A stretch of 8,675 nt of DNA from a bacterium (GTDB lineage: Bacteria > JAJVIF01 > JAGGVT01). The notes beneath the pieces were generated by a model. The model was not told where the DNA came from, ran no database searches, and was given only the letters and a program-made list of their open reading frames with translations. Within the stretch, counting starts at the first letter, position 1. Every line of letters begins with the position of its first letter. The stretch spans positions 1 to 8,675 of the forward strand of contig JAGGVT010000101.1 in NCBI GenBank assembly GCA_021157815.1. Reading direction: 5' to 3'. A program made the translations under genes and the position numbers. Shown here one piece after another: positions 4,212-8,675 of this stretch.

Positions 4212-4240
4212 TTGATAGAACACCTGAAGTGTGGTATAAT
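4212..4240 (+). promoter_or_regulatory. Strong sigma-70 promoter upstream of the pilin gene
   Basis: TTGATA (4212-4217), a 17-bp spacer, and TATAAT (4235-4240) preceded by TGG (4232-4234), an extended -10. Only one base of the two hexamers departs from consensus. Predicted start is near 4247, so the pilin mRNA would have a leader of about 134 nt. Confidence 0.8.
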
Positions 4241-4265
4241 ACATCTTATATAAAGATTGGAGAGT

Positions 4266-4285
4266 AAAAGGCATGCGTGCCTTTT
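4266..4285 (+). promoter_or_regulatory. Leader hairpin overlapping the start codon of the leader ORF
   Basis: AAAAGGCA (4266-4273), loop TGCG, TGCCTTTT (4278-4285) is a perfect 8-bp stem, followed by a T-rich tract (CTTTGGTTTT). It starts about 20 nt after the predicted transcription start. It could be a weak terminator/attenuator or could mask the ATG at 4273-4275; the sequence alone does not decide. Confidence 0.45.
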
Positions 4286-4371
4286 CTTTGGTTTTACGGG
4301 GAGTTAATGCGATTTTTGCAAACTTAATGAAGATTATTTATTTAATGCCCCTGTTTGGGGCGATGACATAA
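4273..4371 (+). CDS. Possible 32-residue leader peptide upstream of the pilin
   Basis: An ATG at 4273 opens a 32-codon frame ending in TAA at 4369-4371. The product begins MRAFSLVLRGVNAIFANLMK and ends MPLFGAMT; it is hydrophobic with scattered basic residues, and I recognise no family. GGAG at 4259-4262 lies 10 nt before the ATG. The TAA is part of the pilin's ribosome site (TAAAGGGAGG), and the pilin is in the same frame only three codons later, so coupling or reinitiation is possible. The start codon is inside a hairpin. The frame may simply be open by chance; codon conservation in a relative would settle it. Confidence 0.3.
   Translation: MRAFSLVLRGVNAIFANLMKIIYLMPLFGAMT
4347..4361 (+). 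promoter_or_regulatory. GC hairpin just upstream of the pilin ribosome site
   Basis: GCCCC (4347-4351), loop TGTTT, GGGGC (4357-4361): a perfect 5-bp GC stem ending 8 nt before the AAAGGGAGG. Its position suggests an effect on translation or mRNA stability, but it matches no riboswitch class I know. Confidence 0.4.
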
Positions 4372-4380
4372 AGGGAGGCG

Positions 4381-4551
4381 ATTGAATTCCAGCACAGCAG
4401 AATATTTTCAAATGAATCCGGTCAGGGATTGACAGAGTACGCGCTGATTATCGCACTGATCGCAATCGCCGTCGTTGCAGCAGTTACAACTTTCGGGGGA
4501 TCTTTGAGTGATTTCTTTGGCCAAATCACTACTACTATAGCCGCCATCTAG
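4381..4551 (+). CDS. Flp/Tad-type pilin (short type IVb prepilin), apparent ATT start
   Basis: A 56-codon gene. After a short leader (IEFQHSRIFSNESG) comes QGLTEYALIIALIAIAVVAA, then VTTFGGSLSDFFGQITTTIA and AI. This is the Flp pilin plan: cleavage after Gly14 by a TadV/PilD-type peptidase, Glu at +5 and Tyr at +6 of the mature 42-residue protein, and one hydrophobic helix that packs into the pilus core. Such pilins are secreted by the Tad apparatus and mediate surface adherence. No ATG, GTG or TTG lies in frame between the TAA at 4369 and the cleavage site except a TTG inside the motif itself. ATT at 4381 follows AAAGGGAGG and gives a normal leader length, so it is either a rare AUU start or an ATG altered by mutation or sequencing error. 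No other tad genes are in the window. Confidence 0.85.
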   Translation: MEFQHSRIFSNESGQGLTEYALIIALIAIAVVAAVTTFGGSLSDFFGQITTTIAAI

Positions 4552-4581
4552 TTGTATGCAAACGACTGAGTTTTTAATATA

Positions 4582-4631
4582 CGGAATTCAAACCGGATAA
4601 CTTGACAATCCGGTTTCCCAAGGCAATTCCG
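4582..4631 (+). ncRNA. Nested stem-loop in the pilin 3' region, class unknown
   Basis: An inner perfect 9-bp stem, AAACCGGAT (4590-4598) with ATCCGGTTT (4608-4616), is enclosed by an outer perfect 7-bp stem, CGGAATT (4582-4588) with AATTCCG (4625-4631). It begins 30 nt after the pilin stop and has no T-run, so it is not a simple terminator. A stabilising 3' structure or a cis-regulatory element is possible. Confidence 0.5.
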
Positions 4632-4636
4632 GGAAG

Positions 4637-4711
4637 AAGGAGGTTAACATTTTCAGTGTTTCAACCGGGGATGGACGCATGGCAAAATTATATCATCACA
4701 GATTTGAATAG
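4637..4711 (+). other. Orphan strong Shine-Dalgarno (AAGGAGG) with only tiny frames after it
   Basis: AAGGAGG at 4637-4643 is followed, 5 nt on, by an ATT-started frame of 20 codons (4649-4711, IFSVSTGDGRMAKLYHHRFE). An overlapping frame runs from GTG 4656 or ATG 4671 to TGA 4713-4715. Neither resembles a known protein, and both end just before the terminator. This may be a very short gene, a decayed second gene of the pilin unit or a chance purine run. Confidence 0.3.
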
Positions 4712-4716
4712 CTGAC

Positions 4717-4743
4717 CGGGCAAATAAGAAGCCCGTTTTTTTT
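4717..4743 (+). terminator. Intrinsic terminator of the pilin transcript
   Basis: CGGGC (4717-4721), a 9-nt loop, GCCCG (4731-4735), then eight T residues (4736-4743). It is a clear rho-independent signal on the plus strand, 166 bp after the pilin stop; the T-run gives the direction. Confidence 0.88.
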
Positions 4744-4776
4744 GTGTCCTTCCTGGAAGCACGAGCGTCATGGGGA

Positions 4777-4953
4777 GTGTTGAAAAAACATTAATGTAGG
4801 GGCGAACCTTGGAATCTGTATCAGAACTAATAAACATCTAGTAAATATCCTGTGAATATCTAACAATTTTGTGCTGCTGTTTGTGCTGCGATCATCCTGC
4901 CTGCATCTTTTCAAATCTTAAGTTACATTAAAAACTATCCCTTTTTCAACAAC
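4777..4953. mobile_element. MITE-like palindromic element, copy 2 (right arm degenerate)
   Basis: The left end GTGTTGAAAAAAC (4777-4789) and right end CTTTTTCAACAAC (4941-4953) form inverted termini like those of the element at 2098. The left arm shares a 24-nt exact block (4796-4819 = 2126-2149) and then TCAGAAC after one mismatch. The facing CGCCCCTAC arm and the central GTCATTCC hairpin of copy 1 are missing; the interior right half is AT-rich and unrelated by eye. Both copies have the same orientation. No ORF is present. Confidence 0.6.
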
Positions 4954-6314: not shown

Positions 6315-6348
6315 TTTGTTGTTTCCTGTTAGCGCCTCTGAAAAAGAA

Positions 6349-6548
6349 TGGATTCCGGGTCAAGCCCGGAATGACAGAAGCTTCTCACCTTAATATAAGC
6401 CCGGAATGACAGAAGCTTGTCACCTTAATATAAGCCCGGAATGACAGAAGCTTGCATCATGTAAAAGACCAACATGACAGAAATTTGTCATTACAGCATA
6501 AGTCCGGGATGGCAGTAATTTGTCATTCCGGGCTTGACCCGGAATCCA
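6349..6548. repeat. 200-bp repeat complex bounded by inverted 27-bp hairpin modules
   Basis: The left boundary (6349-6375) and right boundary (6522-6548) are perfect inverted copies of one 27-nt module that itself folds as ATTCCGGG, loop, CCCGGAAT. A third exact copy is at 8634-8660. Between the boundaries lies a decaying 35-bp tandem array. The module is a dispersed hairpin repeat of the kind that gives the spurious peptide CHSGLDPES when translated. The complex fills the space between the MFS gene and the terminator of the next gene; no protein is encoded. Confidence 0.85.
6362..6525. repeat. 35-bp direct tandem repeat, about five units
   Basis: Units start at 6362, 6397 and 6432 (AAGCCCGGAATGACAGAAGC then TTSTCACCTTAATAT); units 1 and 2 differ by one base. 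The third diverges in its last third, the fourth (6467-6499, 33 nt) is degenerate but keeps ATGACAG and TTGTCA, and the fifth (6500 on) merges into the right 27-bp module. Units are contiguous, without spacers. Decay increases left to right. Confidence 0.8.
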
Positions 6549-6605
6549 TTTTTTCTTTTATAAAGGTTGGCATCATTTCTCTTTGTCAGAAGCCACCTGT
6601 AAGAC

Positions 6606-8587: not shown

Positions 8588-8660
8588 GTCATTCTGAACT
8601 TGATTCAGAATCCACGTCTTCCAGGCTTGAAGATGGATTCCGGGTCAAGCCCGGAATGAC
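8588..8660. repeat. Inverted pair of 27-bp hairpin modules
   Basis: Module 8588-8614 (ATTCTGAA-CTTGA-TTCAGAAT core) faces module 8634-8660, which in the same orientation has ATTCCGGG-CTTGA-CCCGGAAT. The loop and outer bases are identical and the three changed stem pairs are compensated. The second module equals the boundaries at 6349 and 6522 exactly. The pair is separated by 19 bp and lies upstream of the reductase promoter. Confidence 0.85.
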
Positions 8661-8675
8661 ATTGAATATACTTGA

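Follow-up and report, generated by a model that had tools for sequence, protein, structure and literature searches.

Flp/Fap pilins (PF04964), the type IVb pilins of Tad pili, combine a short leader with a hydrophobic mature protein of about 43 residues. The two parts meet in the core G|QGLTEYALII, whose glutamate is residue 5 of the mature protein. The gene described here shares these features with the family and differs from it in having no standard start codon and in being a single gene.

The codon proposed as its start is ATT. In Escherichia coli, infC and pcnB are AUU-started genes. The original prediction named only these two, a list that is out of date: for cvfC1 of Staphylococcus aureus, which encodes a protein of 61 residues, ribosome profiling has revealed an AUU start. 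Staphylococci conserve this non-standard start, which, with an extended Shine-Dalgarno (SD) sequence, reaches about a tenth of the initiation of AUG (PMC13009471; pcnB is cited there as an AUU-started gene as well). What infC, pcnB and cvfC1 have in common with our locus is AUU as the first possible codon behind a strong SD, and cvfC1 is likewise small. In contrast to the conserved and ribosome-profiled start of cvfC1, the AUU discussed below is a proposal from sequence, with a spacing of 2 nt.

The window, by which we mean the whole stretch of DNA analyzed (8,675 nt), is contig C183 of a draft genome (G000) of 3.2 Mb in 221 contigs, which is about 91% complete. Comparisons were made among four genomes of the phylum, G000 itself and G001, G002 and G003. 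Apart from the pilin gene, the window contains several repeats: about 20 imperfect 8-nt units (AACCTATT/AACCTGCT/AACTTGCT) at 1544-1735, between queA and a dciA-like gene; intergenic REP-like repeats (GGATTCCGGGTCAAGCCCGGAATGACA) at 6343-6376, 6521-6554 and 8630-8661; and an intergenic repeat of 41 nt that is present twice, at 2126-2166 and 4796-4836.

The prepilin frame and other Tad components of the genome

The frame at 4381-4551 on the forward strand translates as IEFQHSRIFSNESGQGLTEYALIIALIAIAVVAAVTTFGGSLSDFFGQITTTIAAI* and matches the Pfam family Flp_Fap (PF04964) with an E-value of 2.6e-10 and 40.4 bits, above the cut-off of 32.2, which bears out the claim that it encodes a type IVb prepilin. 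Cleavage by a prepilin peptidase is predicted to occur after the glycine at 4420-4422, before QGLTEY. The segment G|QGLTEY is invariant between the window pilin and seven relatives, and the cleavage motif G|XXXXEY is present together with the hydrophobic N-terminal helix. The sequence marks this frame as that of a genuine prepilin of the Flp/Fap type (Tad, type IVb).

Pilin relatives are present in all four genomes of the phylum. The lone pilins among them, which come from other families of the class than G000, are 38-45% identical to the window pilin (38% for both G001 and G003). Our collection of genome contigs yielded no relatives above 57% identity, and there were none in viral contigs or in plasmids.

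Elsewhere on the 8.7 kb contig there are no tad genes. Four more flp genes of G000 form an array on contig C137; all of them start with ATG, as in the paralogues beginning ATG ACA (MTFDI, MTLDI), and in three of the four GGAGG is found 6-8 nt upstream of the ATG. The genome also encodes CpaB/RcpC on contig C11 and several ATPases of the T2SSE family or secretion type. Given these Tad parts and the window pilin gene, G000 plausibly makes Tad-type pili. A search of G000 for Peptidase_A24, the prepilin peptidase, gave no match, an absence that is not decisive in a draft of 91% completeness; as five flp genes and Tad parts are present, the peptidase may lie outside the draft or may have diverged.

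A conserved promoter and a long leader

Upstream of the frame, at 4212-4240 on the forward strand, lies an extended -10 promoter, TTGATA-N14-TGG-TATAAT (11/12 match), with the hexamers TTGATA and TATAAT at a spacing of 17 and a TG extension. The pattern TTGNTA-N14-TGGTATAAT was built from this promoter and two related loci, so that its matches to these are expected. It is informative that the three loci share the pattern and that the four genomes contain no other match. The pattern occurs exactly once each in G000, G001 (C19:2138-2166) and G003 (C296:9295-9323), the latter two copies also being near-consensus extended -10 promoters, and always directly upstream of a lone flp gene. Base composition alone predicts about 0.05 matches per genome, and a reversed-pattern control never matches.

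The presence of this unique promoter before a lone flp gene in three genomes suggests that transcription of the window pilin gene is conserved, and points to a conserved, stand-alone pilin locus that is probably expressed. It also makes the gene a likely orthologue of the lone pilins of G001 and G003, despite different gene neighbors: a gene similar to mannose-1-phosphate guanylyltransferase follows the lone flp gene in these two genomes, but not in the window. The loci on C19 and C296 share with the window the promoter hexamers, the 17-nt spacing, the TGG before TATAAT, the SD GGAGGC and the solitary pilin. At the other end of the gene, about 165 nt past the stop codon, a terminator-like stem (CGGGC-N9-GCCCG) followed by eight T is located at 4717-4743 on the forward strand. 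Promoter, ribosome site and terminator had been read as signs of an expressed unit, and this holds; the promoter is in addition conserved in three genomes.

The leader of the window gene is about 100 nt longer than those of its relatives, with 140 nt from TATAAT to ATT as compared to 41 nt (G003) and 43 nt (G001) from TATAAT to GTG. It contains a 32-codon ORF (MRAFSLVLRGVNAIFANLMKIIYLMPLFGAMT) at 4273-4371 on the forward strand, in the frame of the pilin; a GGAG precedes this ORF by about 9 nt in SD register. This ORF might encode a leader peptide, beside whose TAA (4369-4371) ribosomes would re-initiate and use a weak AUU at 4381 by translational coupling. Its position 32 nt behind the -10 hexamer, the acceptable distance of the GGAG, the shared frame and the end of the ORF inside the SD of the pilin gene would all suit such a coupling. 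We nevertheless regard it as very unlikely, because no counterpart of the ORF was found in the phylum, it scores neutrally for codon usage, the 41-43 nt between TATAAT and GTG in the two related loci leave no room for it, and re-initiating ribosomes would find the UUG at 4382 as readily; the ORF is probably incidental.

A terminator-like hairpin (AAAAGGCA-TGCG-TGCCTTTT, then a T-rich stretch) at 4266-4285 on the forward strand overlaps the ATG at 4273 and may be due to chance, as one was found and 1.0 is expected in shuffled sequences. We also considered a riboswitch or other known RNA in the leader, but no part of the window reached an Rfam gathering score, the sole match being one to a snoRNA with an E-value of 0.26, attributable to chance. 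A structured leader or tail was rejected as well, the folds of 4247-4440, 4340-4425 and 4552-4745 being not clearly better than those of shuffled sequences. The same applies to a possible GCCCC/GGAGGC hairpin that would hide the SDs of the lone flp genes in G001 and G003.

The start region

From the TAA at 4369-4371 to the glycine, the codons are AGG GAG GCG ATT GAA TTC CAG CAC AGC AGA ATA TTT TCA AAT GAA TCC. There is no ATG, GTG or TTG in frame between TAA 4369 and the glycine codon at 4420, in agreement with the original prediction of a pilin frame without a standard start codon. The SD core GGAGG is located at 4374-4378 on the forward strand, inside AAAGGGAGG, and AAGGGAGGC around it is common to the window and the lone pilin gene of G001. 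The ATT at 4381-4383, proposed as the start codon, is 2 nt away from GGAGG and overlapped by an out-of-frame TTG at 4382. Starting from this ATT, the leader up to the glycine would be 13 residues long, and homologues have leaders of 9-17 residues; from the next in-frame near-start, ATA 4402, only 6 residues would remain.

The ATT had been described as well placed, which the spacing contradicts. In about 270 kb of G000, SD spacing peaks at 5-9 nt, and starts at 3 nt or less from the SD are mostly non-ATG (GTG/TTG) or lie well within frames; where flp homologues have an SD, their best-supported start follows it by about 4-9 nt. Since the draft contains only the 5' half of the 16S gene, pairing with CCUCC was assumed from the peak in GGAGG spacing. 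Wider anti-SD pairing that includes GAU (4380-4382) would, we infer, cover the ATT codon itself.

Comparison with the relatives, which had been proposed as a check on the aligned start codon, gave no ATT start: the lone homologues begin with GTG in G001, ATG in G002 and GTG in G003, at SD spacings of 8, 7 and 7 nt, respectively, so that a non-standard start is not kept at the level of the class. G001 and G003 both read TTA ATT GTG, in which an ATT triplet, itself non-initiating, directly precedes the start. From GGAGG to codon 2 there are 10-11 nt in G003 and G001, whereas in the window, where GGAGG is followed by CG-ATT-GAA, there are 2 nt to the ATT. Compared with the loci on C19 and C296, where GTG follows GGAGG by 7-8 nt and the -10 hexamer by 41-43 nt, the window has 140 nt behind the -10 hexamer and no start, and gives the impression that bases beside the start have dropped out.

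These observations bear on whether AUU 4381 is a true and deliberately weak start, which a strong SD would guide and which would limit pilin synthesis. The precedent of cvfC1, the 13-residue leader and the intact promoter and frame are compatible with it; the gap of 2 nt to GGAGG, outside the usual range of the genome and of homologous genes, the GTG starts of G001 and G003, each directly preceded by a non-initiating ATT, and the competition from a standard UUG one base downstream and out of frame argue against it. We therefore consider initiation at AUU unlikely. It seems similarly unlikely that the pilin of this stand-alone locus, with its strong conserved promoter, is translated only through an inefficient AUU unusually close to the SD, possibly coupled to the 32-residue leader peptide, and so serves as a rare minor subunit.

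The competing UUG at 4382, a standard start codon separated from GGAGG by 3 nt, opens a frame that is a dead end of 16 codons (TGA at 4430-4432). It could serve the pilin if one base were missing at about 4385-4408, for example in the T run at 4405-4408, through a frameshift in the draft or in the cell line. Joined at the T run, the leader would have 13 residues, and in tests on the first eight codons both codon usage (1.4 vs 0.5 bits) and leader similarity (22 vs 14 homologues) lean slightly to the UUG frame, so that the AUU frame is not favored over it. On the other hand, 3 nt remains a small distance from the SD, a run of four T is short for a homopolymer error, and the joined leader would contain no lysine or arginine, as is the case in only 3 of 37 homologous leaders. 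Translation from this UUG is thus unlikely, if somewhat less so than from the AUU.

A start codon apparently lost

We favor, with some reserve, the reading that 4381-4551 is an orphan Flp/Tad-type prepilin gene without a usable start, which was lost by mutation or is missing through an error in the draft consensus. The gene would be a stand-alone prepilin gene, apart from the four-gene array of G000 and run by its own conserved, strong promoter. In the relatives the start stands 7-8 nt past the SD; here, a base substitution or a short deletion in the cell lineage, or else a faulty consensus, would have removed it. As frame and promoter are still intact, such a loss would be recent; little or no prepilin would be made from the AUU. 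A change or loss of the bases bearing the start beside the SD is the simplest account. The original prediction had likewise judged a sequencing error or mutation simpler than AUU initiation, and the 2-nt spacing and the GTG starts of G001 and G003 lean the same way.

Because the relatives are only 38-45% identical and belong to other families, they do not reveal which exact event removed the start. With four other flp genes on C137, a loss could be tolerable, and a comparably broken start (ATG-TAG) is seen in an acidobacterial flp gene, L042, described below. Against a lost start, it may be said that the intact pilin frame, promoter, SD and terminator-like stem also fit a working gene, and that a short-read consensus seldom errs at precisely one given codon.

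A start could also have been lost further upstream, if the original start was ATG 4363 (ATG ACA TAA AGG GAG GCG ATT ...) and TAA 4369 is a nonsense mutation. The array paralogues likewise begin with ATG ACA, the leader would have about 19 residues, and in locus L042 (QIAN01000218.1), from an Acidobacteria MAG, the second codon of a homologous gene is a stop. Yet there is no strong SD upstream of ATG 4363, and the GGAGG after the TAA would be coding sequence by chance, for which reason we find this origin most improbable. As for L042, it resembles the window in having an intact pilin body and a defective flp start, and differs in that the defect is a nonsense codon (ATG then TAG) rather than a missing start and in that an intact copy adjoins. 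Its sequence at about 4635-4676, AAAGGAGAAAAACA-ATG-TAG-AAT-CTG, may reflect either damage to the start of this second flp gene or readthrough of the stop.

If the start was simply lost, the window holds an ordinary degraded or mis-assembled gene. If AUU were truly used, a subunit of a surface structure would join the short list of genes limited by the choice of their start codon. The locus draws attention to small flp genes, which gene callers can overlook, and, in a phylum of which little has been sampled, to a pilin locus that is solitary, conserved and equipped with a strong and unique promoter.
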